Assembly (NCBI RefSeq): GCF_032854445.1
Contig: NC_088304.1
Coordinates: 30,015,732 to 30,079,731 of the forward strand
From: Liolophura sinensis
Lineage: Eukaryota; Mollusca; Polyplacophora; Chitonida; Chitonidae
Length of the DNA stretch: 64,000 bases
Direction of reading: 5' to 3'
Position 1 is the stretch's first letter, and every line of letters starts with the position of its first letter. Both the position numbers and the translations under genes were made by a program. This document shows positions 1,911 through 63,599 of the stretch, piece by piece. The notes below the pieces were generated by a model, which had not been told where the DNA came from, searched no databases, and worked only from the letters and a program-made list of their open reading frames with translations.

Positions 1911-1921
1911 GGTCTCTACAG

Positions 1922-18236: not shown

Positions 18237-18398
18237 ATACTTACTTGGCACAGGGGCTACCGTGATCAATCAGGCGGTGCCCCCAGGGCGAGGCCTTCCC
18301 ATTGCACTTCGGTGGGCTGACCCCTGCGATCGCCCCAAATGTGGGCGACTCGGGTGCGTAATTTTTACTCAGGGGGACTGCGTTCGCGCTATCCCCTT
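18237..18398 (+). ncRNA. U1: U1 snRNA, unit 1 (5'-end variant)
   Basis: Same RNA as the unit 2 reference except that the 5' end reads ATACTTACTTGG: nt 9, which pairs with the last exon base at 5' splice sites, is U instead of C. The upstream region beyond 75 bp is unique to this copy. A 3'-box-like GTGAAAAACAGA lies at 18411-18422. Confidence 0.93.
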
Positions 18399-18583
18399 TC
18401 ATGAACCTAAGTGAAAAACAGAATACAAACATCAACACTTGTCCTTAGTCGGAGATGCGCATCTGGATTAGACAGCCACCACTGCACTGCTGTGTACAGG
18501 CACGTGCGCACTTCGTGTAGGGTTGGTCGCAGACGTTTGGCATGCATGTGACAGCGGCATCCAAGGCAAGTTTTCTGCACGTA

Positions 18584-19974
18584 CCGTAAGCTGGGGTGAA
18601 TTGGGACGATTTTTGTAGTCTTTTCTTTCTGTGCTTCAGAATATCTGATATAATAAGGACTTTTTCTTCTTATCAGTTTGCATTTAATATATGGGTTCAG
18701 CCAGCATTAGTACAAGTCTTAAATGTATAAGAGTCTGCGATTTTTTTTTGTTTGAAAGTTGTCCGAATTCCCCCCCCCCCACAGGAGGTGGTGACTTCGG
18801 ACATTTACTTTACACCAACACATAAACGAGATAAGCCAACCAAAGGGTTGGTTTCGGACTTTAATTAGGTTTTTAAAAAATACAAATTTTAACTTAAACA
18901 TCTCAGGATGTTTGAAAAGTTATAAATGCACGTGTTTTGCTTAACAATGAAACAAATTTGAGAAACCGCAATCACGTTTACACCATTTGGGAGCATAATT
19001 TTACAGTTTAAAAACAAAAGCTATGCAACACACAGTTCAAATACGGAACAGAACGTCTCTAGAATTCCTTTTGTTGACTATGGGATCCATTCACTGGCGT
19101 CAGCCGCAAATTTGAGCAGACCTCTTCGCAGTGTTTGTGGTTGATTAAGTGCTCCAACTATTTGGTCGAAATCCACTAATGCACAGTCTTCTTCTTTGGG
19201 GTGAACAAATACATTTGTCTGCAGACTTTTTCTTCTTAGAAAAGAAACCTCAAGATCCCCATCTGAATAATACACGGTGTCGATCCTTCCGATGAACAGT
19301 TTCTTCACACGATCCCCGAGCCGCACTAATACCCACTGATCTACATGTAACTCCTTAATTGACTTCACGTTAACCACGCCAGTTAGTCCAGTCCTTCCAC
19401 TGCTTCGCTGAGCATTTCCCGATGACGAGGTTCCCTGGACACCTTCTGTTTCTATATTATCGCAATGGCTGCTAACCCCTTTATCGGAATCTCCACCTTC
19501 TGTGCTCTCAGACGACGCTTCTGTAGATTGCTCTTCTCCTGAACTTGTTTCCTCGGAGTCACTAGTTTCACCGTTGTCATCATCATTGTGGGATAAATCC
19601 TCTGAAGAAACACTTTTTCCCGGCTCAACACGAAGACGCTTTGCTCGTTTCTTTGGCTGTTTACAATCTGCACCACGCATGTCTTTCAACAACGCTATTA
19701 ATGCGCCATCCACTCCATGGCCTCCTGCTCCTTCAGGAGTTTTCTCGGTTTCCCTGGGAATCCTATGAAGAACAGGGGTTGGGTCGTGAGGGACAATGCC
19801 GCACTCTTTAAACGCAGATTTTACATTTTCGCTCTGAGTGGTAGATAATTTCTCTGAAAGTTCATGAAGTAGCCGTGGGAATACATCTTTTGCAACAGTA
19901 ACGATACTATTGTATACTTTTATTGGCTCACTGTCCGAATTCACCACGTTGTCCGAAGTCACCCCAATTTACGG
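18584..19974 (-). mobile_element. Transposon relic, unit 1 (pogo/Tigger/Jerky-type, internally deleted)
   Basis: The left end CCGTAAGCTGGGGTGAATTG and the inverted right end CCGTAAATTGGGGTGACTTC are similar terminal inverted repeats, each bordered by TA (18582-18583, 19975-19976), as expected for the Tc1/mariner/pogo superfamily. The motif GGTGA(A/C)TTCGGAC recurs inside both ends, probably as transposase-binding repeats. Only the transposase C-terminus remains (19078-19962). The internal C-tract at 18770-18780 lies in a hairpin whose stem is TGTCCGAA/TTCGGACA. The same element occupies every unit, so it was in place before amplification. Confidence 0.88.
19078..19962 (-). pseudogene. Transposase C-terminal remnant, unit 1 (open, 294 codons)
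   Basis: Residues 20-75 (VFPRLLHELS, ENVKSAF.CGIVPHDPTPVL) fit the segment after the catalytic domain in pogo/Tigger/Jerky-type transposases. Residues 105-190 are Ser/Asp/Glu-rich with a basic patch KQPKKRAKRLR before them. Residues 207-285 (VDQWVLVRLGDRVKKLFIGR through LRRGLLKF) resemble the small C-terminal domain of invertebrate members. No DDE domain or DNA-binding domain is present. The frame begins after TAA at the transposon tip; the first codon that could start is GTG, its first 11 or so residues are translated inverted repeat, and the first ATG is near codon 94. In unit 1 residue 53 is Glu and residue 66 His. Confidence 0.85.
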
Positions 19975-19976
19975 TA

Positions 19977-20126
19977 CTGATGGACAGAATATAACCAAAG
20001 GAGTGAAAAAGGTTTTAACACTGACAGAGATTGGGTGCCAAAGGAAAGTGAGGAAAGCTCGTATTTGACGAGAGACAGAACACCCACTCAAGTCTCGTGC
20101 GCACTTCGTGCGTTTTGTGCCGGGCC
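19977..20126. other. Spacer between relic and next U1 (reference for all units)
   Basis: About 150 bp of non-coding sequence present in units 1-22. It ends with CGTGCGCACTTCGTG (20096-20110), a 15-bp string also found 266 bp after the U1 start (18503-18517 in unit 1). No known promoter motif recognised. Confidence 0.6.
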
Positions 20127-20207
20127 AAGACGGCCAGCCATTTGCGGTTCGCCCAAGCCGGACACGGGCCGTCTTTCACCAGTTTGAGTGGTGAGGCAGA
20201 TCAAATC
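20127..20207 (+). promoter_or_regulatory. Proximal U1 promoter with 9-bp inverted repeat (reference, units 2-23)
   Basis: AAGACGGCC (20127-20135) and GGCCGTCTT (20167-20175) form a perfect inverted repeat with a 31-nt spacer, spanning -81 to -33 of U1, where the proximal sequence element is expected. TCACCA/TGGTGA makes a second small hairpin next to it. No match to the vertebrate PSE consensus is evident. Confidence 0.5.
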
Positions 20208-20369
20208 ATACTTACCTGGCACAGGGGCTACCGTGATCAATCAGGCGGTGCCCCCAGGGCGAGGCCTTCCCATTGCACTTCGGTGGGCTGACCCCTGCGA
20301 TCGCCCCAAATGTGGGCGACTCGGGTGCGTAATTTTTACTCAGGGGGACTGCGTTCGCGCTATCCCCTT
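20208..20369 (+). ncRNA. U1: U1 snRNA, unit 2 (reference copy)
   Basis: RNA of about 162 nt with the universal 5' end ATACTTACCTG, which pairs with 5' splice sites in the U1 snRNP. CAGGGG/CCCCTG forms helix H. Stem-loop I has a good stem (ACCGU/GCGGU), but its ten-base loop is GAUCAAUCAG, against canonical GAUCACGAAG, the U1-70K site. Stem-loop II keeps AUUGCAC, the core bound by U1A/SNF. Stem III UCGCCC...GGGCGA is fully paired, with bases differing from human on both sides. The Sm site is AATTTTTA, and stem-loop IV is GGGG..CTGCGTTCGCG..CCCC. The 3' end is placed by alignment with human U1. Confidence 0.97.
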
Positions 20370-20381
20370 TCATGAACCTAA

Positions 20382-20393
20382 GTGAAAAACAGA
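20382..20393 (+). terminator. 3' box of U1 (reference; present in all units)
   Basis: GTGAAAAACAGA lies about 13 nt after the U1 3' end and fits the snRNA 3'-box consensus GTTTN0-3AAARNNAGA, read by the Integrator machinery. It sits at +174 to +185 from each U1 start. Confidence 0.65.
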
Positions 20394-20554
20394 ATACAAA
20401 CATCAACACTTGTCCTTAGTCGGAGATGCGCATCTGGATTAGACAGCCACCACTGCACTGCTGTGTACAGGCACGTGCGCACTTCGTGTAGGGTTGGTCG
20501 CAGACGTTTGGCATGCATGTGACAGCGGCATCCAAGGCAAGTTTTCTGCACGTA

Positions 20555-21947
20555 CCGTAAGCTGGGGTGAATTGGGACGATTTTTGTAGTCTTTTCTTTC
20601 TGTGCTTCAGAATATCTGATATAATAAGGACTTTTTCTTCTTATCAGTTTGCATTTAATATATGGGTTCAGCCAGCATCAGTACAAGTCTTAAATGTATA
20701 AGAGTCTGCGATTTTTTTTTGTTTGAAAGTTGTCCGAATTCCCCCCCCCCCCCACAGGAGGTGGTGACTTCGGACATTTACTTTACACCAACACATAAAC
20801 GAGATAAGCCAACCAAAGGGTTGGTTTCGGACTTTAATTAGGTTTTTAAAAAATACAAATTTTAACTTAAACATCTCAGGATGTTTGAAAAGTTATAAAT
20901 GCACGTGTTTTGCTTAACAATGAAACAAATTTGAGAAACCGCAATCACGTTTACACCATTTGGGAGCATAATTTTACAGTTTAAAAACAAAAGCTATGCA
21001 ACACACAGTTCAAATACGGAACAGAACGTCTCTAGAATTCCTTTTGTTGACTATGGGATCCATTCACTGGCGTCAGCCGCAAATTTGAGCAGACCTCTTC
21101 GCAGTGTTTGTGGTTGATTAAGTGCTCCAACTATTTGGTCGAAATCCACTAATGCACAGTCTTCTTCTTTGGGGTGAACAAATACATTTGTCTGCAGACT
21201 TTTTCTTCTTAGAAAAGAAACCTCAAGATCCCCATCTGAATAATACACGGTGTCGATCCTTCCGATGAACAGTTTCTTCACACGATCCCCGAGCCGCACT
21301 AATACCCACTGATCTACATGTAACTCCTTAATTGACTTCACGTTAACCACGCCAGTTAGTCCAGTCCTTCCACTGCTTCGCTGAGCATTTCCCGATGACG
21401 AGGTTCCCTGGACACCTTCTGTTTCTATATTATCGCAATGGCTGCTAACCCCTTTATCGGAATCTCCACCTTCTGTGCTCTCAGACGACGCTTCTGTAGA
21501 TTGCTCTTCTCCTGAACTTGTTTCCTCGGAGTCACTAGTTTCACCGTTGTCATCATCATTGTGGGATAAATCCTCTGAAGAAACACTTTTTCCCGGCTCA
21601 ACACGAAGACGCTTTGCTCGTTTCTTTGGCTGTTTACAATCTGCACCACGCATGTCTTTCAACAACGCTATTAATGCGCCATCCACTCCATGGCCTCCTG
21701 CTCCTTCAGGAGTTTTCTCGGTTTCCCTGGGAATCCTATCAAGAACAGGGGTTGGGTCGTGAGGGACAATGCCGCACTTTTTAAACGCAGATTTTACATT
21801 TTCGCTCTGAGTGGTAGATAATTTCTCTGAAAGTTCATGAAGTAGCCGTGGGAATACATCTTTTGCAACAGTAACGATACTATTGTATACTTTTATTGGC
21901 TCACTGTCCGAATTCACCACGTTGTCCGAAGTCACCCCAATTTACGG
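20555..21947 (-). mobile_element. Transposon relic, unit 2
   Basis: Both ends and TA borders intact; uninterrupted C-tract before ACAGGAGGTGG. Confidence 0.88.
21051..21935 (-). pseudogene. Transposase C-terminal remnant, unit 2 (open)
   Basis: 294 codons with Lys53 and Asp66, the commoner allele pair in this array. Confidence 0.85.
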
Positions 21948-22180
21948 TACTGATGGACAGAATATAACCAAAGGAGTGAAAAAGGTTTTAACACTGACAG
22001 AGATTGGGTGCCAAAGGAAAGTGAGGAAAGCTCGTATTTGACGAGAGACAGAACACCCACTCAAGTCTCGTGCGCACTTCGTGCGTTTTGTGCCGGGCCA
22101 AGACGGCCAGCCATTTGCGGTTCGCCCAAGCCGGACACGGGCCGTCTTTCACCAGTTTGAGTGGTGAGGCAGATCAAATC

Positions 22181-22342
22181 ATACTTACCTGGCACAGGGG
22201 CTACCGTGATCAATCAGGCGGTGCCCCCAGGGCGAGGCCTTCCCATTGCACTTCGGTGGGCTGACCCCTGCGATCGCCCCAAATGTGGGCGACTCGGGTG
22301 CGTAATTTTTACTCAGGGGGACTGCGTTCGCGCTATCCCCTT
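22181..22342 (+). ncRNA. U1: U1 snRNA, unit 3
   Basis: Same as the unit 2 RNA; preceded by the promoter with the 9-bp inverted repeat. Confidence 0.97.
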
Positions 22343-22527
22343 TCATGAACCTAAGTGAAAAACAGAATACAAACATCAACACTTGTCCTTAGTCGGAGAT
22401 GCGCATCTGGATTAGACAGCCACCACTGCACTGCTGTGTACAGGCACGTGCGCACTTCGTGTAGGGTTGGTCGCAGACGTTTGGCATGCATGTGACAGCG
22501 GCATCCAAGGCAAGTTTTCTGCACGTA

Positions 22528-23920
22528 CCGTAAGCTGGGGTGAATTGGGACGATTTTTGTAGTCTTTTCTTTCTGTGCTTCAGAATATCTGATATAATAA
22601 GGACTTTTTCTTCTTATCAGTTTGCATTTAATATATGGGTTCAGCCAGCATCAGTACAAGTCTTAAATGTATAAGAGTCTGCGATTTTTTTTTGTTTGAA
22701 AGTTGTCCGAATTCCCCCCCCCCCCCACAGGAGGTGGTGACTTCGGACATTTACTTTACACCAACACATAAACGAGATAAGCCAACCAAAGGGTTGGTTT
22801 CGGACTTTAATTAGGTTTTTAAAAAATACAAATTTTAACTTAAACATCTCAGGATGTTTGAAAAGTTATAAATGCACGTGTTTTGCTTAACAATGAAACA
22901 AATTTGAGAAACCGCAATCACGTTTACACCATTTGGGAGCATAATTTTACAGTTTAAAAACAAAAGCTATGCAACACACAGTTCAAATACGGAACAGAAC
23001 GTCTCTAGAATTCCTTTTGTTGACTATGGGATCCATTCACTGGCGTCAGCCGCAAATTTGAGCAGACCTCTTCGCAGTGTTTGTGGTTGATTAAGTGCTC
23101 CAACTATTTGGTCGAAATCCACTAATGCACAGTCTTCTTCTTTGGGGTGAACAAATACATTTGTCTGCAGACTTTTTCTTCTTAGAAAAGAAACCTCAAG
23201 ATCCCCATCTGAATAATACACGGTGTCGATCCTTCCGATGAACAGTTTCTTCACACGATCCCCGAGCCGCACTAATACCCACTGATCTACATGTAACTCC
23301 TTAATTGACTTCACGTTAACCACGCCAGTTAGTCCAGTCCTTCCACTGCTTCGCTGAGCATTTCCCGATGACGAGGTTCCCTGGACACCTTCTGTTTCTA
23401 TATTATCGCAATGGCTGCTAACCCCTTTATCGGAATCTCCACCTTCTGTGCTCTCAGACGACGCTTCTGTAGATTGCTCTTCTCCTGAACTTGTTTCCTC
23501 GGAGTCACTAGTTTCACCGTTGTCATCATCATTGTGGGATAAATCCTCTGAAGAAACACTTTTTCCCGGCTCAACACGAAGACGCTTTGCTCGTTTCTTT
23601 GGCTGTTTACAATCTGCACCACGCATGTCTTTCAACAACGCTATTAATGCGCCATCCACTCCATGGCCTCCTGCTCCTTCAGGAGTTTTCTCGGTTTCCC
23701 TGGGAATCCTATCAAGAACAGGGGTTGGGTCGTGAGGGACAATGCCGCACTTTTTAAACGCAGATTTTACATTTTCGCTCTGAGTGGTAGATAATTTCTC
23801 TGAAAGTTCATGAAGTAGCCGTGGGAATACATCTTTTGCAACAGTAACGATACTATTGTATACTTTTATTGGCTCACTGTCCGAATTCACCACGTTGTCC
23901 GAAGTCACCCCAATTTACGG
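22528..23920 (-). mobile_element. Transposon relic, unit 3
   Basis: Same length as unit 2 (1393 bp), uninterrupted C-tract. Confidence 0.88.
23024..23908 (-). pseudogene. Transposase C-terminal remnant, unit 3 (open)
   Basis: 294 codons, Lys53/Asp66; protein identical to unit 2. Confidence 0.85.
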
Positions 23921-24153
23921 TACTGATGGACAGAATATAACCAAAGGAGTGAAAAAGGTTTTAACACTGACAGAGATTGGGTGCCAAAGGAAAGTGAGGA
24001 AAGCTCGTATTTGACGAGAGACAGAACACCCACTCAAGTCTCGTGCGCACTTCGTGCGTTTTGTGCCGGGCCAAGACGGCCAGCCATTTGCGGTTCGCCC
24101 AAGCCGGACACGGGCCGTCTTTCACCAGTTTGAGTGGTGAGGCAGATCAAATC

Positions 24154-24315
24154 ATACTTACCTGGCACAGGGGCTACCGTGATCAATCAGGCGGTGCCCC
24201 CAGGGCGAGGCCTTCCCATTGCACTTCGGTGGGCTGACCCCTGCGATCGCCCCAAATGTGGGCGACTCGGGTGCGTAATTTTTACTCAGGGGGACTGCGT
24301 TCGCGCTATCCCCTT
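24154..24315 (+). ncRNA. U1: U1 snRNA, unit 4
   Basis: Same as the unit 2 RNA. Confidence 0.97.
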
Positions 24316-24500
24316 TCATGAACCTAAGTGAAAAACAGAATACAAACATCAACACTTGTCCTTAGTCGGAGATGCGCATCTGGATTAGACAGCCACCACT
24401 GCACTGCTGTGTACAGGCACGTGCGCACTTCGTGTAGGGTTGGTCGCAGACGTTTGGCATGCATGTGACAGCGGCATCCAAGGCAAGTTTTCTGCACGTA

Positions 24501-25897
24501 CCGTAAGCTGGGGTGAATTGGGACGATTTTTGTAGTCTTTTCTTTCTGTGCTTCAGAATATCTGATATAATAAGGACTTTTTCTTCTTATCAGTTTGCAT
24601 TTAATATATGGGTTCAGCCAGCATCAGTACAAGTCTTAAATGTATAAGAGTCTGCGATTTTTTTTTGTTTGAAAGTTGTCCGAATTCCCCCCCCCCCCCC
24701 CCCACAGGAGGTGGTGACTTCGGACATTTACTTTACACCAACACATAAACGAGATAAGCCAACCAAAGGGTTGGTTTCGGACTTTAATTAGGTTTTTAAA
24801 AAATACAAATTTTAACTTAAACATCTCAGGATGTTTGAAAAGTTATAAATGCACGTGTTTTGCTTAACAATGAAACAAATTTGAGAAACCGCAATCACGT
24901 TTACACCATTTGGGAGCATAATTTTACAGTTTAAAAACAAAAGCTATGCAACACACAGTTCAAATACGGAACAGAACGTCTCTAGAATTCCTTTTGTTGA
25001 CTATGGGATCCATTCACTGGCGTCAGCCGCAAATTTGAGCAGACCTCTTCGCAGTGTTTGTGGTTGATTAAGTGCTCCAACTATTTGGTCGAAATCCACT
25101 AATGCACAGTCTTCTTCTTTGGGGTGAACAAATACATTTGTCTGCAGACTTTTTCTTCTTAGAAAAGAAACCTCAAGATCCCCATCTGAATAATACACGG
25201 TGTCGATCCTTCCGATGAACAGTTTCTTCACACGATCCCCGAGCCGCACTAATACCCACTGATCTACATGTAACTCCTTAATTGACTTCACGTTAACCAC
25301 GCCAGTTAGTCCAGTCCTTCCACTGCTTCGCTGAGCATTTCCCGATGACGAGGTTCCCTGGACACCTTCTGTTTCTATATTATCGCAATGGCTGCTAACC
25401 CCTTTATCGGAATCTCCACCTTCTGTGCTCTCAGACGACGCTTCTGTAGATTGCTCTTCTCCTGAACTTGTTTCCTCGGAGTCACTAGTTTCACCGTTGT
25501 CATCATCATTGTGGGATAAATCCTCTGAAGAAACACTTTTTCCCGGCTCAACACGAAGACGCTTTGCTCGTTTCTTTGGCTGTTTACAATCTGCACCACG
25601 CATGTCTTTCAACAACGCTATTAATGCGCCATCCACTCCATGGCCTCCTGCTCCTTCAGGAGTTTTCTCGGTTTCCCTGGGAATCCTATCAAGAACAGGG
25701 GTTGGGTCGTGAGGGACAATGCCGCACTTTTTAAACGCAGATTTTACATTTTCGCTCTGAGTGGTAGATAATTTCTCTGAAAGTTCATGAAGTAGCCGTG
25801 GGAATACATCTTTTGCAACAGTAACGATACTATTGTATACTTTTATTGGCTCACTGTCCGAATTCACCACGTTGTCCGAAGTCACCCCAATTTACGG
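24501..25897 (-). mobile_element. Transposon relic, unit 4
   Basis: Four bases longer than unit 2 because of a longer C-tract. Confidence 0.88.
25001..25885 (-). pseudogene. Transposase C-terminal remnant, unit 4 (open)
   Basis: 294 codons, Lys53/Asp66. Confidence 0.85.
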
Positions 25898-26130: not shown

Positions 26131-26292
26131 ATACTTACCTGGCACAGGGGCTACCGTGATCAATCAGGCGGTGCCCCCAGGGCGAGGCCTTCCCATTGCA
26201 CTTCGGTGGGCTGACCCCTGCGATCGCCCCAAATGTGGGCGACTCGGGTGCGTAATTTTTACTCAGGGGGACTGCGTTCGCGCTATCCCCTT
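26131..26292 (+). ncRNA. U1: U1 snRNA, unit 5
   Basis: Same as the unit 2 RNA. Confidence 0.97.
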
Positions 26293-28106: not shown

Positions 28107-28268
28107 ATACTTACCTGGCACAGGGGCTACCGTGATCAATCAGGCGGTGCCCCCAGGGCGAGGCCTTCCCATTGCACTTCGGTGGGCTGACCCCTGCGAT
28201 CGCCCCAAATGTGGGCGACTCGGGTGCGTAATTTTTACTCAGGGGGACTGCGTTCGCGCTATCCCCTT
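28107..28268 (+). ncRNA. U1: U1 snRNA, unit 6
   Basis: Same as the unit 2 RNA. Confidence 0.97.
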
Positions 28269-30092: not shown

Positions 30093-30254
30093 ATACTTAC
30101 CTGGCACAGGGGCTACCGTGATCAATCAGGCGGTGCCCCCAGGGCGAGGCCTTCCCATTGCACTTCGGTGGGCTGACCCCTGCGATCGCCCCAAATGTGG
30201 GCGACTCGGGTGCGTAATTTTTACTCAGGGGGACTGCGTTCGCGCTATCCCCTT
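30093..30254 (+). ncRNA. U1: U1 snRNA, unit 7
   Basis: Same as the unit 2 RNA. Confidence 0.97.
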
Positions 30255-32071: not shown

Positions 32072-32233
32072 ATACTTACCTGGCACAGGGGCTACCGTGA
32101 TCAATCAGGCGGTGCCCCCAGGGCGAGGCCTTCCCATTGCACTTCGGTGGGCTGACCCCTGCGATCGCCCCAAATGTGGGCGACTCGGGTGCGTAATTTT
32201 TACTCAGGGGGACTGCGTTCGCGCTATCCCCTT
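32072..32233 (+). ncRNA. U1: U1 snRNA, unit 8
   Basis: Same as the unit 2 RNA. Confidence 0.97.
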
Positions 32234-34057: not shown

Positions 34058-34219
34058 ATACTTACCTGGCACAGGGGCTACCGTGATCAATCAGGCGGTG
34101 CCCCCAGGGCGAGGCCTTCCCATTGCACTTCGGTGGGCTGACCCCTGCGATCGCCCCAAATGTGGGCGACTCGGGTGCGTAATTTTTACTCAGGGGGACT
34201 GCGTTCGCGCTATCCCCTT
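34058..34219 (+). ncRNA. U1: U1 snRNA, unit 9
   Basis: Same as the unit 2 RNA. Confidence 0.97.
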
Positions 34220-36036: not shown

Positions 36037-36198
36037 ATACTTACCTGGCACAGGGGCTACCGTGATCAATCAGGCGGTGCCCCCAGGGCGAGGCCTTCCC
36101 ATTGCACTTCGGTGGGCTGACCCCTGCGATCGCCCCAAATGTGGGCGACTCGGGTGCGTAATTTTTACTCAGGGGGACTGCGTTCGCGCTATCCCCTT
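36037..36198 (+). ncRNA. U1: U1 snRNA, unit 10
   Basis: Same as the unit 2 RNA. Confidence 0.97.
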
Positions 36199-38018: not shown

Positions 38019-38180
38019 ATACTTACCTGGCACAGGGGCTACCGTGATCAATCAGGCGGTGCCCCCAGGGCGAGGCCTTCCCATTGCACTTCGGTGGGCT
38101 GACCCCTGCGATCGCCCCAAATGTGGGCGACTCGGGTGCGTAATTTTTACTCAGGGGGACTGCGTTCGCGCTATCCCCTT
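38019..38180 (+). ncRNA. U1: U1 snRNA, unit 11
   Basis: Same as the unit 2 RNA. Confidence 0.97.
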
Positions 38181-39867: not shown

Positions 39868-40029
39868 ATACTTACCTGGCACAGGGGCTACCGTGATCAA
39901 TCAGGCGGTGCCCCCAGGGCGAGGCCTTCCCATTGCACTTCGGTGGGCTGACCCCTGCGATCGCCCCAAATGTGGGCGACTCGGGTGCGTAATTTTTACT
40001 CAGGGGGACTGCGTTCGCGCTATCCCCTT
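39868..40029 (+). ncRNA. U1: U1 snRNA, unit 12
   Basis: Same as the unit 2 RNA. Confidence 0.97.
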
Positions 40030-41852: not shown

Positions 41853-42014
41853 ATACTTACCTGGCACAGGGGCTACCGTGATCAATCAGGCGGTGCCCCC
41901 AGGGCGAGGCCTTCCCATTGCACTTCGGTGGGCTGACCCCTGCGATCGCCCCAAATGTGGGCGACTCGGGTGCGTAATTTTTACTCAGGGGGACTGCGTT
42001 CGCGCTATCCCCTT
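41853..42014 (+). ncRNA. U1: U1 snRNA, unit 13
   Basis: Same as the unit 2 RNA. Confidence 0.97.
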
Positions 42015-43828: not shown

Positions 43829-43990
43829 ATACTTACCTGGCACAGGGGCTACCGTGATCAATCAGGCGGTGCCCCCAGGGCGAGGCCTTCCCATTGCACT
43901 TCGGTGGGCTGACCCCTGCGATCGCCCCAAATGTGGGCGACTCGGGTGCGTAATTTTTACTCAGGGGGACTGCGTTCGCGCTATCCCCTT
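43829..43990 (+). ncRNA. U1: U1 snRNA, unit 14
   Basis: Same as the unit 2 RNA. Confidence 0.97.
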
Positions 43991-45807: not shown

Positions 45808-45969
45808 ATACTTACCTGGCACAGGGGCTACCGTGATCAATCAGGCGGTGCCCCCAGGGCGAGGCCTTCCCATTGCACTTCGGTGGGCTGACCCCTGCGA
45901 TCGCCCCAAATGTGGGCGACTCGGGTGCGTAATTTTTACTCAGGGGGACTGCGTTCGCGCTATCCCCTT
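45808..45969 (+). ncRNA. U1: U1 snRNA, unit 15
   Basis: Same as the unit 2 RNA. Confidence 0.97.
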
Positions 45970-47785: not shown

Positions 47786-47947
47786 ATACTTACCTGGCAC
47801 AGGGGCTACCGTGATCAATCAGGCGGTGCCCCCAGGGCGAGGCCTTCCCATTGCACTTCGGTGGGCTGACCCCTGCGATCGCCCCAAATGTGGGCGACTC
47901 GGGTGCGTAATTTTTACTCAGGGGGACTGCGTTCGCGCTATCCCCTT
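47786..47947 (+). ncRNA. U1: U1 snRNA, unit 16
   Basis: Same as the unit 2 RNA. Confidence 0.97.
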
Positions 47948-49015: not shown

Positions 49016-50548
49016 TACTATCCAAAAAAAGAAACGCATAGGTGTTTTGTTTTATTTTAAAATGAAATAAATACATTTTGTCTTCATTTCATGAGCAAAA
49101 TGTGTTTTAATATTGTTAATAGTCACAGTTAGCACACATTTTATTCCTCAAAACATTTCTTGGTTGAAAATGTTGAGTTTGGAGGCCGTTTTTGGAAGAA
49201 GTAAAAAATACAGCACCACACTGCATCACGTGCAGTCTTACACGCCGAACTTACGCATGGAAAGCATGCAGTGTATGACTATAAAACCGCAACTTCGGGC
49301 CGGAAATCGGCGTCTTTCAAGTGGTGTTTTCAAGCTGATTCAACATGTCACGTCTTGACACTGTCACAAGAAATATTGCCATTGGAAGACTTCAAGCTGG
49401 AGAGTCCCAATCGTCCATTTCTAGGCGTCTACACGTCAGCCAGAGCACGATTTCACGGCTTGCTGCCCGCTACAACAATACTGGGACAACAAATGACCGT
49501 CGGCGTTCAGGTCGACCACGTGTCATTACAGCAGCCCAAGATCGCTACATAAGGGTCCTCCATTTGCGTGACCGTTGTGCTACAGCTGAAAGCACAGCAG
49601 CCAGCATACCGGGACTGAGGAGGATATCAGGTCAGGCAGTGCGGAACAGGCTGAGGGAACATGGACTGAGAGCCAGGAGGCCCTATGTTGGGATCGTGCT
49701 GCGTCCTCACCATCGCGCCAATCGCCTCCGATGGTGTAACAACGTGACTGCATGGAATCTACGCAACTGGCGACGCATTTGGTTCAGTGATGAGTCCAGA
49801 TTCCTATTGCAGAGAGGTGATGGTAGAAACAGGGTTTACAGACGTGCTCACGAACGTTATGCCCCTAACTGCGTACGCCAAGTGGACAGATTTGGTGGAG
49901 GGAGTGTGATGATGTGGGCAGCAATATCGTATACTGGTCGTACAAATCTTGTCCACGTTCAGGGAAATCTTACGGCCGTACGCTACCGAGACACCATCCT
50001 GCAGCCACACCTCTTACCTGTCATTGACGTTCAGCGGGAGTTGTTCCAGCAGGACAACGCCATACCGCACACGGCACGTGTCACAAGGGACTTCCTCGCC
50101 GAAAACAATGTAAATGTGCTACCCTAGCCGTCCCGTTCCCCGAATCTTAACCCAATTGAGCATCTGTGGGATGAACTTGATCGACGTCTACGCCAACGTC
50201 AACCTCAACCCCAAACGCTTCAAGAGCAAGTTGCATGTTTGCAGGAGGAGTGGCAGAACATTCCCCAGGCCTCTATCCAGCGTCTCATCCAGTCCATGAC
50301 AAGGCGTGTCAGAACTGTTATTCGTGCCCGTGGTGGTCACAACAGATAATGACATTCCACTCAAGTGGGAGACTCATTGTGAGTGTCTTACCTCAAGTTG
50401 ATGGCCTTGTTGTCTAGATATGGACCCTTACTTAATCTGTGTAAAAAAATATTTGCAGAATAGCAATTCTTATTTAGCTATGCATAATTGAAAAGACTGC
50501 ATCACCTCCGCAAAAAACCGGGTTATGCGTTTCTTTTTTTGGATAGTA
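49016..50548 (+). mobile_element. Tc1-type transposon, 1533 bp, with TA duplication
   Basis: Perfect 25-bp terminal inverted repeats at 49016-49040 and 50524-50548, beginning TACTATCCAAAAAAAGAAAC. TA target duplications lie at 49014-49015 and 50549-50550; the exact fit of the flanking relic frame confirms the ends. One transposase gene fills the interior. Perfect repeats and absence from the other units mark a young insertion. Confidence 0.96.
49345..50349 (+). pseudogene. Tc1-type DD34E transposase with one in-frame stop
   Basis: ATG 49345 opens a frame with an N-terminal helix-turn-helix (GESQSSISRRLHVSQSTISR), a GRPR hook-like motif (residues 56-59), the first Asp in WFSDESRF, the second in QQDNAIPHTA, and the Glu in NPIEHLWDELD, 34 residues after the second Asp. 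A TAG at 50125-50127 interrupts the frame just after NVLP, where relatives usually have Trp before PSRSP; it then stays open to TAA 50347-50349. About 334 codons in all, normal for Tc1. This single nonsense change makes the copy probably non-autonomous, though its ends look usable by a transposase supplied from elsewhere. Confidence 0.95.
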
Positions 50549-51303: not shown

Positions 51304-51465
51304 ATACTTACCTGGCACAGGGGCTACCGTGATCAATCAGGCGGTGCCCCCAGGGCGAGGCCTTCCCATTGCACTTCGGTGGGCTGACCCCTGCGATCGC
51401 CCCAAATGTGGGCGACTCGGGTGCGTAATTTTTACTCAGGGGGACTGCGTTCGCGCTATCCCCTT
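51304..51465 (+). ncRNA. U1: U1 snRNA, unit 17
   Basis: Same as the unit 2 RNA. Confidence 0.97.
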
Positions 51466-53279: not shown

Positions 53280-53441
53280 ATACTTACCTGGCACAGGGGC
53301 TACCGTGATCAATCAGGCGGTGCCCCCAGGGCGAGGCCTTCCCATTGCACTTCGGTGGGCTGACCCCTGCGATCGCCCCAAATGTGGGCGACTCGGGTGC
53401 GTAATTTTTACTCAGGGGGACTGCGTTCGCGCTATCCCCTT
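53280..53441 (+). ncRNA. U1: U1 snRNA, unit 18
   Basis: Same as the unit 2 RNA, although the relic in this unit is among the most diverged. Confidence 0.97.
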
Positions 53442-55249: not shown

Positions 55250-55411
55250 ATACTTACCTGGCACAGGGGCTACCGTGATCAATCAGGCGGTGCCCCCAGG
55301 GCGAGGCCTTCCCATTGCACTTCGGTGGGCTGACCCCTGCGATCGCCCCAAATGTGGGCGACTCGGGTGCGTAATTTTTACTCAGGGGGACTGCGTTCGC
55401 GCTATCCCCTT
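55250..55411 (+). ncRNA. U1: U1 snRNA, unit 19
   Basis: Same as the unit 2 RNA. Confidence 0.97.
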
Positions 55412-56094
55412 TCATGAACCTAAGTGAAAAACAGAATACAAACATCAACACTTGTCCTTAGTCGGAGATGCGCATCTGGATTAGACAGCCACCACTGCAC
55501 TGCTGTGTACAGGCACGTGCGCACTTCGTGTAGGGTTGGTCGCAGACGTTTGGCATGCATGTGACAGCGGCATCCAAGGCAAGTTTTCTGCACGTACCGT
55601 AAGCTGGGGTGAATTGGGACGATTTTTGTAGTCTTTTCTTTCTGTGCTTCAGAATATCTGATATAATAAGGACTTTTTCTTCTTATCAGTTTGCATTTAA
55701 TATATGGGTTCAGTCAGCATCAGTACAAGTCTTAAATGTATAAGAGTCTGCGATTTTTTTTTGTTTGAAAGTTGTCCGAATTCCCCCCCCCCCCCCCACA
55801 GGAGGTGGTGACTTCGGACATTTACTTTACACCAACACATAAACGAGATAAGCCAACCAAAGGGTTGGTTTCGGACTTTAATTAGGTTTTTAAAAAATAC
55901 AAATTTTAACTTAAACATCTCAGGATGTTTGAAAAGTTATAAATGCACGTGTTTTGCTTAACAATGAAACAAATTTGAGAAACCGCAATCACGTTTACAC
56001 CATTTGGGAGCATAATTTTACAGTTTAAAAACAAAAGCTATGCAACACACAGTTCAAATACGGAACAGAACGTCTCTAGAATTCCTTTTGTTGA

Positions 56095-57268
56095 CTATGG
56101 GATCCATTCACTGGCGTCAGCCGCAAATTTGAGCAGACCTCTTCGCAGTGTTTGTGGTTGATTAAGTGCTCCAACTATTTGGTCGAAATCCACTAATGCA
56201 CAGTCTTCTTCTTTGGGGTGAACAAATACATTTGTCTGCAGACTTTTTCTTCTTAGAAAAGAAACCTCAAGATCCCCATCTGAATAATACACGGTGTCGA
56301 TCCTTCCGATGAACAGTTTCTTCACACGATCCCCGAGCCGCACTAATACCCACTGATCTACATGTAACTCCTTAATTGACTTCACGTTAACCACGCCAGT
56401 TAGTCCAGTCCTTCCACTGCTTCGCTGAGCATTTCCCGATGACGAGGTTCCCTGGACGCCTTCTGTTTCTATATTATCGCAATGGCTGCTAACCCCTTTA
56501 TCGGAATCTCCACCTTCTGTGCTCTCAGACGACGCTTCTGTAGATTGCTCTTCTCCTGAACTTGTTTCCTCGGAGTCACTAGTTTCACCGTTGTCATCAT
56601 CATTGTGGGATAAATCCTCTGAAGAAACACTTTTTCCCGGGGGCCTCCGTGGCTCAGTCGGTTAGCGCGCTAGCGCAGCGTAATGACCCAGAAGCCTCTC
56701 ACCAATGCGGTCGCTGTGAGTTCAAGACCAGCTTATGCTGCCTTCCTCTCCGGCCGTACGTGGGAAGGTCTGCCAGAAACCTGCGGATGGTCGTGGGTTT
56801 CCCCCGGGCTGTGCCCGGTTTCCACCCACCATAATGCTGGCCGCCGTCGTATAAGTGAAATATTCTTGAGTACGGCGTAAAACACCAATCAAAAAAAAAA
56901 AAAAAAAAAAAAAAAAAACTTTTTCCCGGCTCAACACGAAGACACTTTGCTCGTTTCTTTGGCTGTTTACAATCTGCACCACGCATGTCTTTCAACAACG
57001 CTATTAATGCGCCATCCACTCCATGGCCTCCTGCTCCTTCAGGAGTTTTCTCGGTTTCCCTGGGAATCCTATCAAGAACAGGGGTTGGGTCGTGAGGGAC
57101 AATGCCGCACTTTTTAAACGCAGATTTTACATTTTCGCTCTGAGTGGTAGATAATTTCTCTGAAAGTTCATGAAGTAGCCGTGGGAATACATCTTTTGCA
57201 ACAGTAACGATACTATTCTATACTTTTATTGGCTCACTGTCCGAATTCACCACGTTGTCCGAAGTCAC
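56095..57268 (-). pseudogene. Transposase C-terminal remnant, unit 19 (split by SINE)
   Basis: The pieces 56095-56639 (545 bp) and 56929-57268 (340 bp) sum to exactly 885 bp once one copy of the target duplication is removed. Lys53/Asp66. Confidence 0.9.
56640..56917 (+). mobile_element. SINE inserted in the unit 19 relic
   Basis: Same family as 10556 and 13321, with A-box TGGCTCAGTCGGTTAGC, a B-box region GAGTTCAAGACC, CGTAAAACACCAATC and a poly-A tail of about 26. The 11-bp target-site duplication ACTTTTTCCCG lies at 56629-56639 and 56918-56928. Confidence 0.96.
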
Positions 57269-57513
57269 CCCAATTTACGGTACTGATGGACAGAATATAA
57301 CCAAAGGAGTGAAAAAGGTTTTAACACTGACAGAGATTGGGTGCCAAAGGAAAGTGAGGAAAGCTCGTATTTGACGAGAGACAGAACACCCACTCAAGTC
57401 TCGTGCGCACTTCGTGCGTTTTGTGCCGGGCCAAGACGGCCAGCCATTTGCGGTTCGCCCAAGCCGGACACGGGCCGTCTTTCACCAGTTTGAGTGGTGA
57501 GGCAGATCAAATC

Positions 57514-57675
57514 ATACTTACCTGGCACAGGGGCTACCGTGATCAATCAGGCGGTGTCCCCAGGGCGAGGCTTTCCCATTGCACTTCGGTGGGCTGACCC
57601 CTGCGATCGCCCCAAATGTGGGCGACTCGGGTGCGTAATTTTTACTCAGGGGGACTGCGTTCGCGCTATCCCCTT
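57514..57675 (+). ncRNA. U1: U1 snRNA, unit 20 (two C-to-T changes)
   Basis: Differs from the unit 2 RNA at nt 44 (GCGGTGTCCCC) and nt 59 (GAGGCTTTCCC). The first lies in the lower stem of stem-loop I, where U can still pair with G; the second is on the 5' side of stem-loop II. Confidence 0.95.
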
Positions 57676-57860
57676 TCATGAACCTAAGTGAAAAACAGAA
57701 TACAAACATCAACACTTGTCCTTAGTCGGAGATGCGCATCTGGATTAGACAGCCACCACTGCACTGCTGTGTACAGGCACGTGCGCACTTCGTGTAGGGT
57801 TGGTCGCAGACGTTTGGCATGCATGTGACAGCGGCATCCAAGGCAAGTTTTCTGCACGTA

Positions 57861-59252
57861 CCGTAAGCTGGGGTGAATTGGGACGATTTTTGTAGTCTTT
57901 TCTTTCTGTGCTTCAGAATATCTGATATAATAAGGACTTTTTCTTCTTATCAGTTTGCATTTAATATATGGGTTCAGCCAGCATCAGTACAAGTCTTAAA
58001 TGTATAAGAGTCTGCGATTTTTTTTTGTTTGAAAGTTGTCCGATTTCCCCCCCCCCCAACAGGAGGTGGTGACTTCGGACATTTACTTTACACCAACACA
58101 TAAACGAGATAAGCCAACCAAAGGGTTGGTTTCGGACTTTAATTAGGTTTTTAAAAAATACAAATTTTAACTTAAACATCTCAGGATGTTTGAAAAGTTA
58201 TAAATGCACGTGTTTTGCTTAACAATGAAACAAATTTGAGAAACCGCAATCACGTTTACACCATTTGGGAGCATAATTTTACAGTTTAAAAACAAAAGCT
58301 ATGCAACACACAGTTCAAATACGGAACAGAACGTCTCTAGAATTCCTTTTGTTGACTATGGGATCCATTCACTGGCGTCAGCCGCAAATTTGAGCAGACC
58401 TCTTCGCAGTGTTTGTGGTTGATTAAGTGCTCCAACTATTTGGTCGAAATCCACTAATGCACAGTCTTCTTCTTTGGGGTGAACAAATACATTTGTCTGC
58501 AGACTTTTTCTTCTTAGAAAAGAAACCTCAAGATCCCCATCTGAATAATACACGGTGTCGATCCTTCCGATGAACAGTTTCTTCACACGATCCCCGAGCC
58601 GCACTAATACCCACTGATCTACATGTAACTCCTTAATTGACTTCACGTTAACCACGCCAGTTAGTCCAGTCCTTCCACTGCTTCGCTGAGCATTTCCCGA
58701 TGACGAGGTTCCCTGGACACCTTCTGTTTCTATATTATCGCAATGGCTGCTAACCCCTTTATCGGAATCTCCACCTTCTGTGCTCTCAGACGACGCTTCT
58801 GTAGATTGCTCTTCTCCTGAACTTGTTTCCTCGGAGTCACTAGTTTCACCGTTGTCATCATCATTGTGGGATAAATCCTCTGAAGAAACACTTTTTCCCG
58901 GCTCAACACGAAGACGCTTTGCTCGTTTCTTTGGCTGTTTACAATCTGCACCACGCATGTCTTTCAACAACGCTATTAATGCGCCATCCACTCCATGGCC
59001 TCCTGCTCCTTCAGGAGTTTTCTCGGTTTCCCTGGGAATCCTATCAAGAACAGGGGTTGGGTCGTGAGGGACAATGCCGCACTCTTTAAACGCAGATTTT
59101 ACATTTTCGCTCTGAGTGGTAGATAATTTCTCTGAAAGTTCATGAAGTAGCCGTGGGAATACATCTTTTGCAACAGTAACGATACTATTGTATACTTTTA
59201 TTGGCTCACTGTCCGAATTCACCACGTTGTCCGAAGTCACCCCAATTTACGG
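57861..59252 (-). mobile_element. Transposon relic, unit 20
   Basis: Private variant around the C-tract (CCGATTTCCC and CCAACAGGAGG), so the hairpin stem is weakened. Confidence 0.88.
58356..59240 (-). pseudogene. Transposase C-terminal remnant, unit 20 (open)
   Basis: 294 codons, Glu53/Asp66. Confidence 0.85.
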
Positions 59253-59485
59253 TACTGATGGACAGAATATAACCAAAGGAGTGAAAAAGGTTTTAACACT
59301 GACAGAGATTGGGTGCCAAAGGAAAGTGAGGAAAGCTCGTATTTGACGAGAGACAGAACACCCACTCAAGTCTCGTGCGCACTTCGTGCGTTTTGTGCCG
59401 GGCCAAGACGGCCAGCCATTTGCGGTTCGCCCAAGCCGGACACGGGCCGTCTTTCACCAGTTTGAGTGGTGAGGCAGATCAAATC

Positions 59486-59647
59486 ATACTTACCTGGCAC
59501 AGGGGCTACCGTGATCAATCAGGCGGTGCCCCCAGGGCGAGGCCTTCCCATTGCACTTCGGTGGGCTGACCCCTGCGATCGCCCCAAATGTGGGCGACTC
59601 GGGTGCGTAATTTTTACTCAGGGGGACTGCGTTCGCGCTATCCCCTT
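59486..59647 (+). ncRNA. U1: U1 snRNA, unit 21
   Basis: Same as the unit 2 RNA. Confidence 0.97.
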
Positions 59648-59832
59648 TCATGAACCTAAGTGAAAAACAGAATACAAACATCAACACTTGTCCTTAGTCG
59701 GAGATGCGCATCTGGATTAGACAGCCACCACTGCACTGCTGTGTACAGGCACGTGCGCACTTCGTGTAGGGTTGGTCGCAGACGTTTGGCATGCATGTGA
59801 CAGCGGCATCCAAGGCAAGTTTTCTGCACGTA

Positions 59833-61232
59833 CCGTAAGCTGGGGTGAATTGGGACGATTTTTGTAGTCTTTTCTTTCTGTGCTTCAGAATATCTGATAT
59901 AATAAGGACTTTTTCTTCTTATCAGTTTGCATTTAATATATGGGTTCAGCCAGCATTAGTACAAGTCTTAAATGTATAAGAGTCTGCGATTTTTTTTTGT
60001 TTGAAAGTTTTCCGAATTCCCCCCCCCCCCCCCCCCCCCACAGGAGGTGGTGACTTCGGACATTTACTTTACACCAACACATAAACGAGATAAGCCAACC
60101 AAAGGGTTGGTTTCGGACTTTAATTAGGTTTTTAAAAAATACAAATTTTAACTTAAACATCTCAGGATGTTTGAAAAGTTATAAATGCACGTGTTTTGCT
60201 TAACAATGAAACAAATTTGAGAAACCGCAATCACGTTTACACCATTTGGGAGCATAATTTTACAGTTTAAAAACAAAAGCTATGCAACACACAGTTCAAA
60301 TACGGAACAGAACGTCTCTAGAATTCCTTTTGTTGACTATGGGATCCATTCACTGGCGTCAGCCGCAAATTTGAGCAGACCTCTTCGCAGTGTTTGTGGT
60401 TGATTAAGTGCTCCAACTATTTGGTCGAAATCCACTAATGCACAGTCTTCTTCTTTGGGGTGAACAAATACATTTGTCTGCAGACTTTTTCTTCTTAGAA
60501 AAGAAACCTCAAGATCCCCATCTGAATAATACACGGTGTCGATCCTTCCGATGAACAGTTTCTTCACACGATCCCCGAGCCGCACTAATACCCACTGATC
60601 TACATGTAACTCCTTAATTGACTTCACGTTAACCACGCCAGTTAGTCCAGTCCTTCCACTGCTTCGCTGAGCATTTCCCGATGACGAGGTTCCCTGGACA
60701 CCTTCTGTTTCTATATTATCGCAATGGCTGCTAACCCCTTTATCGGAATCTCCACCTTCTGTGCTCTCAGACGACGCTTCTGTAGATTGCTCTTCTCCTG
60801 AACTTGTTTCCTCGGAGTCACTAGTTTCACCGTTGTCATCATCATTGTGGGATAAATCCTCTGAAGAAACACTTTTCCCGGCTCAACACGAAGACGCTTT
60901 GCTCGTTTCTTTGGCTGTTTACAATCTGCACCACGCATGTCTTTCAACAACGCTATTAATGCGCCATCCACTCCATGGCCTCCTGCTCCTTCAGGAGTTT
61001 TCTCGGTTTCCCTGGGAATCCTATCAAGAACAGGGGTTGGGTCGTGAGGGACAATGCCGCACTCTTTAAACGCAGATTTTACATTTTCGCTCTGAGTGGT
61101 AGATAATTTCTCTGAAAGTTCATGAAGTAGCCGTGGGAATACATCTTTTGCAACAGTAACGATACTATTGTATACTTTTATTGGCTCACTGTCCGAATTC
61201 ACCACGTTGTCCGAAGTCACCCCAATTTACGG
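59833..61232 (-). mobile_element. Transposon relic, unit 21
   Basis: Long C-tract after AAGTTTTCCGAATTC (G-to-T change in the hairpin stem). Shares CAGCATTAGTAC with units 1, 22 and 23, where the others have CAGCATCAGTAC. Confidence 0.88.
60337..61220 (-). pseudogene. Transposase C-terminal remnant, unit 21 (frameshifted)
   Basis: One T is missing in ACACTTTTCCCGG near 60874, shifting the frame at VEPGK. Glu53/Asp66. Confidence 0.88.
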
Positions 61233-61465
61233 TACTGATGGACAGAATATAACCAAAGGAGTGAAAAAGGTTTTAACACTGACAGAGATTGGGTGCCAAA
61301 GGAAAGTGAGGAAAGCTCGTATTTGACGAGAGACAGAACACCCACTCAAGTCTCGTGCGCACTTCGTGCGTTTTGTGCCGGGCCAAGACGGCCAGCCATT
61401 TGCGGTTCGCCCAAGCCGGACACGGGCCGTCTTTCACCAGTTTGAGTGGTGAGGCAGATCAAATC

Positions 61466-61627
61466 ATACTTACCTGGCACAGGGGCTACCGTGATCAATC
61501 AGGCGGTGCCCCCAGGGCGAGGCCTTCCCATTGCACTTCGGTGGGCTGACCCCTGCGATCGCCCCAAATGTGGGCGACTCGGGTGCGTAATTTTTACTCA
61601 GGGGGACTGCGTTCGCGCTATCCCCTT
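61466..61627 (+). ncRNA. U1: U1 snRNA, unit 22
   Basis: Same as the unit 2 RNA. The 3' flank has one private G (GCAGGCGTTTGG). Confidence 0.97.
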
Positions 61628-61812
61628 TCATGAACCTAAGTGAAAAACAGAATACAAACATCAACACTTGTCCTTAGTCGGAGATGCGCATCTGGATTAG
61701 ACAGCCACCACTGCACTGCTGTGTACAGGCACGTGCGCACTTCGTGTAGGGTTGGTCGCAGGCGTTTGGCATGCATGTGACAGCGGCATCCAAGGCAAGT
61801 TTTCTGCACGTA

Positions 61813-63204
61813 CCGTAAGCTGGGGTGAATTGGGACGATTTTTGTAGTCTTTTCTTTCTGTGCTTCAGAATATCTGATATAATAAGGACTTTTTCTTCTT
61901 ATCAGTTTGCATTTAATATATGGGTTCAGCCAGCATTAGTACAAGTCTTAAATGTATAAGAGTCTGCGATTTTTTTTTGTTTGAAAGTTGTCCGAATTCC
62001 CCCCCCCCCCACAGGAGGTGGTGACTTCGGACATTTACTTTACACCAACACATAAACGAGATAAGCCAACCAAAGGGTTGGTTTCGGACTTTAATTAGGT
62101 TTTTAAAAAATACAAAGTTTAACTTAAACATCTCAGGATGTTTGAAAAGTTATAAATGCACGTGTTTTGCTTAACAATGAAACAAATTTGAGAAACCGCA
62201 ATCACGTTTACACCATTTGGGAGCATAATTTTACAGTTTAAAAACAAAAGCTATGCAACACACAGTTCAAATACGGAACAGAACGTCTCTAGAATTCCTT
62301 TTGTTGACTATGGGATCCATTCACTGGCGTCAGCCGCAAATTTGAGCAGACCTCTTCGCAGTGTTTGTGGTTGATTAAGTGCTCCAACTATTTGGTCGAA
62401 ATCCACTAATGCACAGTCTTCTTCTTTGGGGTGAACAAATACATTTGTCTGCAGACTTTTTCTTCTTAGAAAAGAAACCTCAAGATCCCCATCTGAATAA
62501 TACACGGTGTCGATCCTTCCGATGAACAGTTTCTTCACACGATCCCCGAGCCGCACTAATACCCACTGATCTACATGTAACTCCTTAATTGACTTCACGT
62601 TAACCACGCCAGTTAGTCCAGTCCTTCCACTGCTTCGCTGAGCATTTCCCGATGACGAGGTTCCCTGGACACCTTCTGTTTCTATATTATCGCAATGGCT
62701 GCTAACCCCTTTATCGGAATCTCCACCTTCTGTGCTCTCAGACGACGCTTCTGTAGATTGCTCTTCTCCTGAACTTGTTTCCTCGGAGTCACTAGTTTCA
62801 CCGTTGTCATCATCATTGTGGGATAAATCCTCTGAAGAAACACTTTTTCCCGGCTCAACACGAAGACGCTTTGCTCGTTTCTTTGGCTGTTTACAATCTG
62901 CACCACGCATGTCTTTCAACAACGCTATTAATGCGCCATCCACTCCATGGCCTCCTGCTCCTTCGGGAGTTTTCTCGATTTCCCTGGGAATCCTATCAAG
63001 AACAGGGGTTGGGTCGTGAGGGACAATGCCGCACTCTTTAAACGCAGATTTTACATTTTCGCTCTGAGTGGTAGATAATTTCTCTGAAAGTTCATGAAGT
63101 AGCCGTGGGAATACATCTTTTGCAACAGTAACGATACTATTGTATACTTTTATTGGCTCACTGTCCGAATTCACCACGTTGTCCGAAGTCACCCCAATTT
63201 ACGG
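61813..63204 (-). mobile_element. Transposon relic, unit 22
   Basis: Short C-tract; CAGCATTAGTAC variant; private TACAAAGTTTAAC change. Confidence 0.88.
62308..63192 (-). pseudogene. Transposase C-terminal remnant, unit 22 (open)
   Basis: 294 codons, Glu53/Asp66, with a private Thr-to-Ile change (PREIEKTPEG). Confidence 0.85.
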
Positions 63205-63437
63205 TACTGATGGACAGAATATAACCAAAGGAGTGAAAAAGGTTTTAACACTGACAGAGATTGGGTGCCAAAGGAAGGTGAGGAAAGCTCGTATTTGACG
63301 AGAGACAGAACACCCACTCAAGTCTCGTGCGCACTTCGTGCGTTTTGTGCCGGGCCAAGACGGCCAGCCATTTGCGGTTCGCCCAAGCCGGACACGGGCC
63401 GTCTTTCACCAGTTTGAGTGGTGAGGCAGATCAAATC

Positions 63438-63599
63438 ATACTTACCTGGCACAGGGGCTACCGTGATCAATCAGGCGGTGCCCCCAGGGCGAGGCCTTCC
63501 CATTGCACTTCGGTGGGCTGACCCCTGCGATCGCCCCAAATGTGGGCGACTCGGGTGCGTAATTTTTACTCAGGGGGACTGCGTTCGCGCTATCCCCTT
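63438..63599 (+). ncRNA. U1: U1 snRNA, unit 23
   Basis: Same as the unit 2 RNA; the last complete U1 in the window. Confidence 0.97.

Follow-up and report, generated by a model that had tools for sequence, protein, structure and literature searches.

A tandem array of U1 snRNA genes with an altered U1-70K loop beside dispersed canonical U1 genes in the chiton Liolophura sinensis

Introduction

A 64,000-nucleotide stretch of the genome of the chiton Liolophura sinensis (hereafter, the window; C10:30015732-30079731) contains a tandem array of genes for U1 small nuclear RNA (snRNA) in which the loop of stem-loop I (SL1), the binding site of the U1-70K protein, departs from the canonical sequence. 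Does this array encode a working variant of U1, or is the unusual loop a property of the entire lineage, of a decaying repeat or of the assembly? As argued below, the array probably encodes a second, structurally intact and functional isoform of U1 snRNA, alongside three dispersed canonical genes.

The embryonic U1 genes of Xenopus are tandem. U1 isoforms are described as stage-dependent in mouse and Xenopus, as has been suggested for sea urchin, and U4 isoform switching is reported for Xenopus and chicken (PMC4291461); the animals with variant U1 genes include mouse, frog, fly, moth and sea urchin, according to a paper that also cites, by title, a developmentally switched U1 gene repeat of sea urchin (PMC5159530). 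A literature search for U1 snRNA and mollusc returned no paper on mollusc U1 by title, and a text search by the letters of the array loop found no report of this loop in the library searched (no title on U1 among the papers listed). The L. sinensis assembly is described as built from PacBio HiFi reads at 14x with Omni-C scaffolding (PMC11068029); the assembled species was at first named L. japonica, later corrected to L. sinensis (PMC12441733).

The U1 array and its loop

A cmscan search of the window detected 23 full-length U1 genes (RF00003), all on the + strand, each spanning model positions 1-166 and scoring above the 69.5-bit gathering score (147.7 bits in 21 copies, 146.9 and 145.5 in the remaining two). 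Over 162 nucleotides, 21 of the 23 copies are identical, the variants being those at 18237 (C9T) and 57514 (C44T and C59T). The units are mostly spaced by about 1.97 kb (range, 1849 to 3518), and the array extends past the window boundary.

18237-63599, + strand: U1 tandem array, in-window part, 23 genes (cmscan)
18237-18398, + strand: U1 copy 1, edge copy, C9T in the 5' splice-site pairing region; loop 18264-18273
20208-20369, + strand: U1 copy 2, majority sequence; loop 20235-20244
22181-22342, + strand: U1 copy 3; loop 22208-22217
24154-24315, + strand: U1 copy 4; loop 24181-24190
26131-26292, + strand: U1 copy 5; loop 26158-26167
28107-28268, + strand: U1 copy 6; loop 28134-28143
30093-30254, + strand: U1 copy 7; loop 30120-30129
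32072-32233, + strand: U1 copy 8; loop 32099-32108
34058-34219, + strand: U1 copy 9; loop 34085-34094
36037-36198, + strand: U1 copy 10; loop 36064-36073
38019-38180, + strand: U1 copy 11; loop 38046-38055
39868-40029, + strand: U1 copy 12; loop 39895-39904
41853-42014, + strand: U1 copy 13; loop 41880-41889
43829-43990, + strand: U1 copy 14; loop 43856-43865
45808-45969, + strand: U1 copy 15; loop 45835-45844
47786-47947, + strand: U1 copy 16; loop 47813-47822
51304-51465, + strand: U1 copy 17; loop 51331-51340
53280-53441, + strand: U1 copy 18; loop 53307-53316
55250-55411, + strand: U1 copy 19; loop 55277-55286
57514-57675, + strand: U1 copy 20, C44T and C59T; loop 57541-57550
59486-59647, + strand: U1 copy 21; loop 59513-59522
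61466-61627, + strand: U1 copy 22; loop 61493-61502
63438-63599, + strand: U1 copy 23; loop 63465-63474

The array U1 resembles canonical U1 (RF00003) in its full-length match, 5' end, four stem-loops, AUUGCAC loop and Sm-type site, and differs from it in the SL1 loop, which is GAUCAAUCAG in place of the consensus type GAUCANGAAG, the U1-70K site. All 23 copies have this non-canonical loop, as the first-pass annotation of the window had claimed: it reads GATCAATCAG in each of them, and this 10-mer occurs 24 times in the window, compared with 0.23 occurrences expected from shuffles, the 24th (at 11190) lying outside any U1. The ordinary loop GATCACGAAG does not occur anywhere in the window. The human U1 bases G28 to G37, which are named singly in the structural account of PMC4383343, spell GAUCACGAAG; relative to these, the array loop carries C33A, G34U and A35C, that is, AUC instead of CGA at positions 33-35. 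The earlier count of three differing bases in ten thus holds for the comparison with human U1, whereas the array loop departs from the Rfam consensus loop, GAUCAaGAAG, at two positions only (34 and 35). Because the array loop can be read as G-AUCA-AUCA-G, with the AUCA core doubled, the triple change may have been one local replacement event rather than three separate ones, which would then have spread through the array by homogenisation.

Two classes of U1 genes in one genome

The whole genome (609,464,459 bases in 632 contigs) was searched for U1 in two ways, namely, with the Rfam model, for which 42 of 8309 first-look candidates were scored to give 41 matches, one under the cut-off, and at the DNA level with a dispersed U1 as the query, for which 40 of 46 candidates were scored, yielding 40 places; the resulting copy numbers are lower bounds. 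At least 40 full-length U1 copies are present, 37 of the array type and three dispersed. The former comprise 32 copies in the C10 array, one outlier at C10:30140378 and four on the unplaced contig C627, and are 93-94% identical to the dispersed query in the DNA search. The dispersed genes are located on two chromosomes other than that of the array. Those at C6:35982109-35982269 and C7:20657248-20657408 match the query at 100% over 161 bases, and that at C7:20655294-20655453 at 100% over 160 bases, differing at 161, so that the three are identical to each other across nucleotides 1-160. Partial U1 pieces in L020, L021, L022 and L025 were left out of the copy counts.

By direct reading, all three dispersed genes have the loop GATCACGAAG, and 35 of the 37 array-type copies have GATCAATCAG. 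The remaining two are C10:30085091, with the loop GATCAATCTG, and C10:30087058, which has an extra base in the loop and a deletion elsewhere. The check for U1 elsewhere in the genome that the first-pass annotation had proposed thus brought up canonical genes beside the variant ones. Because ordinary-loop dispersed genes and array-type copies coexist in a single genome, the array is, as judged by gene sequence, a second U1 class beside the canonical one and not a whole-lineage change. The array class is set apart from the dispersed genes by 10 differences in 161 nucleotides (37 versus three copies).

A sequencing or assembly error as the source of the loop, which the annotation had named as a possible refutation of its finding, has next to no chance of being the correct explanation. 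Tandem arrays are hard to assemble, and an unplaced 8.6-kb contig carries four copies; however, the identical loop recurs in 35 of the 37 copies, the assembly was made from HiFi reads, and the differences between the classes are linked and compensated. The repeated loop and the HiFi reads lead us to reject this candidate.

Compensated stems and retained sites

Between the array sequence and the C6 gene, 10 of nucleotides 1-161 differ, and so does nucleotide 162. Three of the 10 positions (33, 34 and 35) belong to the SL1 loop and seven (21, 43, 52, 86, 88, 96 and 110) to stems. In the Rfam structure, the seven stem differences occupy four base pairs, three of which are changed on both sides and one on one side, with none broken: 21-43 is C-G in the array and A-U in the dispersed genes, 52-86 is G-C and U-G, 96-110 is G-C and A-U, and 50-88 is G-C and G-U, respectively. 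When 10 changes were placed at random, three or more two-sided pairs arose in three of 300,000 trials; with seven changes confined to paired sites, three or more two-sided pairs again arose in three of 300,000 trials, and no pair was broken in 30 of 300,000 (these trials used uniform substitutions and ignored ancestry). The non-standard pairs A16-C48 and U143-U154 are common to both classes, and the loop-closing U27-G38 pair is unchanged between them.

Three sites outside SL1 are alike in the array and dispersed classes: the 5' end ACUUACCU, which pairs with the 5' splice site, is found in 22 of the 23 window copies (the copy at 18237 has C9T), and the stem-loop II (SL2) loop AUUGCAC, the U1A loop, and the Sm-type site AAUUUUU are found in all 23. 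Accordingly, the first-pass statement that the stem, the AUUGCAC core, the Sm site and the 5' end are kept stands with that one exception at the 5' end, and unpaired differences between the classes are restricted to the 70K loop and the 3' end. Because the stem changes are compensated and no pair is broken, we infer that selection for the U1 fold acted on both classes as they diverged. This pattern suggests a functional array class at the time of the divergence, which bears on its past and does not by itself prove present activity. Calculated folding energies were not used as evidence (SL1 alone, -15.4 kcal/mol for the dispersed class and -17.6 for the array class; dimers, -37.3 and -40.4), and neither were the unconstrained minimum-energy folds, which are unlike between the classes.

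The altered loop and U1-70K

In the account of the human complex given in PMC4383343, C33 and G34 are stacked between Arg191 and Lys138 and A35 continues the stack, and no base hydrogen bond is mentioned where these three bases are described; A29 pairs with A36, U30 is bonded to Asp177, C31 and A32 are stacked on Phe106 and Phe148, and Tyr112 and Arg172 hold G28. The array loop retains seven of the 10 bases (G28, A29, U30, C31, A32, A36 and G37), including all those of the described contacts other than 33-35. Because these seven are kept, U1-70K most likely still binds the array U1, possibly with a changed affinity; at least, the kept bases suggest that binding is not abolished.

Comparison with other U1 genes adds a little on the loop positions that can change. 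A comparator search of genome contigs outside this genome found 10 stretches, two of which contained U1 above the Rfam cut-off; a search of viral contigs found nothing. The U1 loop is GATCAAGAAG in L007 and GATCAGCAAG in L009, and in the latter, with the loop GAUCAGCAAG, bases 33 and 34 are both changed. Therefore, positions 33 and 34 can vary. The U1 (and U2) genes at L007:1121-1283, L009:1527-1690 and L009:1-184 are found in bacterial or cyanobacterial bins and are evidently eukaryotic contaminants.

The U1-70K N-terminal domain (PF12220) has one match in the chiton genome (two candidates scored), in a gene on C6. The exons of the RNA recognition motif (RRM) were followed from this match, with inferred splice sites; a segment upstream of the RRM was not located. 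Out of the 11 RNA-contact residues taken from the human crystal structure described in PMC4383343 (106, 112, 138, 148, 172, 175, 177, 190, 191, 196 and 200), 10 are as in human, the exception being K138, which is Q in the chiton. Among the 120 homologues listed out of 1631, 45 have K at residue 138, 18 have T, 18 have V and 10 have Q. Given the 10 unchanged contacts and the variability of residue 138, the RRM is ordinary at the sequence level, with no sign of a U1-70K altered to fit the new loop.

These observations decide between the two options left by the first-pass annotation, which had proposed inspecting the RRM. One of them, that the array loop is the ordinary loop of this lineage and that U1-70K co-evolved to recognise it, has very little to recommend it. 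The agreement of all 23 window copies fits this option, as does the Q at position 138, one of the two residues that sandwich bases 33 and 34, but three canonical-loop U1 genes reside in the same genome, the PF12220 match is single, the residue in question is highly variable and the other 10 contacts are unchanged; we therefore reject a lineage-wide loop change. The other option, that the array makes a variant U1, is supported by the finding of a distinct, internally homogeneous class with compensated stems; the altered 70K binding that the annotation attached to it is a possibility.

Promoter and 3' signals

A promoter matrix was derived from the 120 bases upstream of eight other snRNA genes (three dispersed U1, three U2, the dispersed U4 and one array U4). 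It describes a 24-base element at about -63 that resembles a proximal sequence element (PSE), with the consensus nAGAnCCCnnnnnTnGnACACGGA, and none of 200 shuffled sets equalled its information. In the array U1, which was left out of the matrix, the -63 site ranks second of 377 positions and is in the same register as in the other snRNA genes. The register searched, -64 plus or minus 2, came from an earlier nine-gene search that included the array U1 and in which only width 24 put all nine genes in register; width 16 misplaced the U1 on C6, the U2 on C9 and the array U4, and width 20 misplaced the U2 on C9. The 3' box has the consensus AAARNNAGA, and a similar motif was noted by eye, with no control, downstream of the array U1; by the same uncontrolled inspection, motifs similar to AAAAACAGA are found downstream of the dispersed U1 genes too.

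20145-20168, + strand: PSE-like promoter element, -63 of the representative array U1 (snRNA-upstream matrix)
20385-20393, + strand: 3'-box-like AAAAACAGA, downstream of the representative array U1 (by eye, no control)

Active genes or a homogenised relict

Several observations count against the array U1 as a functional isoform that binds U1-70K. The units were aligned for 29 of the 32 extracted (three of unusual length were left out), with pairwise identity of 98.9-100% (mean, 99.7%), and in this alignment U1 is no less variable than the spacer (segregating sites, 4 of 162 versus 47 of 1811). The top position of the promoter matrix upstream of the array U1 is -132, not -63. Both G34 and A35, in upper case in the Rfam consensus, are changed in the array loop, and no other U1 with an altered base 35 was found among the U1 loops read. 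Binding of 70K reportedly requires eight of the 10 loop bases (Surowy 1989). Within-array diversity therefore lends no support to purifying selection acting on the array U1 at present; it speaks for recent homogenisation. Considering the conservation of G34 and A35 in Rfam, the unmatched change of base 35 and the reported need for eight bases, weaker 70K binding of the array loop is quite possible.

The within-array diversity raises the prospect of a relict resembling a satellite, silent or almost so, which concerted evolution has homogenised; the loop change would then be neutral and the dispersed genes would do the work. We consider this unlikely, while giving it some weight. Apart from the within-array diversity, such a relict would account for the decayed or fragmentary copies near or beyond the far end of the array (C10:30085091, C10:30087058 and the pieces in L021, L022 and L025), the Tc1/mariner-like open reading frame (ORF) in one unit and the identity of the three dispersed genes across nucleotides 1-160. 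It does not readily explain why the loop is kept in 35 of 37 copies and 21 of 23 window copies are identical, or why stem changes between the classes are compensatory and the array retains the 5' end, U1A loop, Sm site and PSE-like element.

The conservation of positions 34 and 35 in the Rfam consensus, in turn, fits a specialised small nuclear ribonucleoprotein (snRNP) with little or no 70K, in which the loop change would weaken U1-70K binding and alter assembly or exon-definition activity. There is also outside precedent: some human variant U1 snRNPs are reported to lack U1-70K (PMC5159530), substitutions in the 70K site of human variant U1 genes are described (PMC13172311), and U1-70K on SL1 is said to connect U1 to the SMN complex (PMC12390936). 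However, the other seven loop bases are retained, among them G28, the A29-A36 pair and U30; a less disruptive loop I mutant is reported not to have wholly abolished the 70K interaction (PMC4822034); and position 33 is variable in the Rfam consensus, with 33 and 34 both changed in L009. On balance, we find a snRNP of this kind decidedly improbable.

Passengers of the repeat units

The spacer of the representative unit contains a frame that is open over 296 codons between stops. Residues 24-133 of this frame match the C-terminal part of a DDE_1-domain protein, with 102 of 110 residues (93%) identical to Liolophura sinensis LOC135463478; a Pfam scan of the frame itself, in one unit, gave no domain above the cut-off. 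The frame is open over 296 codons at 16 places in the window and over 293 codons at one more. This DDE_1-like frame is a passenger of the repeat unit.

21051-21941, - strand: open frame, 296 codons between stops, in the spacer of the representative unit (DDE_1-domain protein match)

The Tc1/mariner-like transposase ORF (PF01498 above the cut-off) is located at 49339-50127, inside an enlarged, 3518-base unit. Another enlarged unit, of 2264 bases, contains a run of 28 A at 56891-56918 that probably belongs to an inserted element. Large minisatellites of 67, 24 and 48 bases lie at 190-1915, 3181-3921 and 5586-8904, on the left side of the array.

Layout of U4 and U2 genes

The genome search for U4 (42 of 74036 candidates scored) identified one dispersed gene at C9:25150121 (127.1 bits) and at least 41 lower-scoring copies on C11:9911668-9986706; one array U4 differs from the dispersed U4 at six of 141 positions. 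For U2, three high-scoring copies, on three contigs, were found among 12 matches (46 of 32285 candidates scored). In the U4 matches, the layout is two-part, similar to that of U1.

Discussion

We conclude that the U1 array of L. sinensis probably encodes a functional second isoform. The array would be transcribed and its RNA would enter U1 snRNPs, where U1-70K would bind it. The array could be a high-output supply of U1, for example, for oocytes or embryos; by analogy with U1 genes of other animals that are variant or regulated in development, such a developmental supply role may exist.

Like mouse, Xenopus and sea urchin, the chiton has more than one U1 class in a single genome, and its two-part U4 layout parallels the U4 switching of Xenopus and chicken. 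A further likeness is to the human variant U1 (vU1) genes, which are U1 paralogues substituted within the U1-70K binding domain (PMC13172311). Many of the human variants, however, are reported as able to recognise non-canonical junctions (PMC5159530, PMC13172311), whereas the array class is homogeneous and multi-copy, and 22 of its 23 copies in the window have the canonical 5' end. What is distinctive of the chiton array, at the level of its predicted RNA, is that it is homogeneous and high in copy number, leaves the 5' end unchanged and differs at unpaired positions only in the 70K loop and the 3' end.

A further-reaching scenario, which we hold to be rather unlikely, is that this high-copy class with its rebuilt loop provides the chiton with U1 snRNPs of two kinds, unlike in 70K affinity or register but with the same 5' end and the same U1-70K, and with the array-type U4 as a possible companion. 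If true, the animal would have a natural spliceosome set specific to a stage or tissue, in which exon definition or assembly is tuned.

Provided that the array U1 is expressed, the chiton offers a natural experiment in which one ordinary U1-70K meets two loops in one animal, the array loop being changed at three adjacent positions, of which two are conserved in the Rfam consensus. Such an experiment would reveal which loop bases are truly required in vivo and would tell whether variant U1 pools serve a further animal phylum. The similar layout of the U4 genes makes a two-set snRNA system directly testable.

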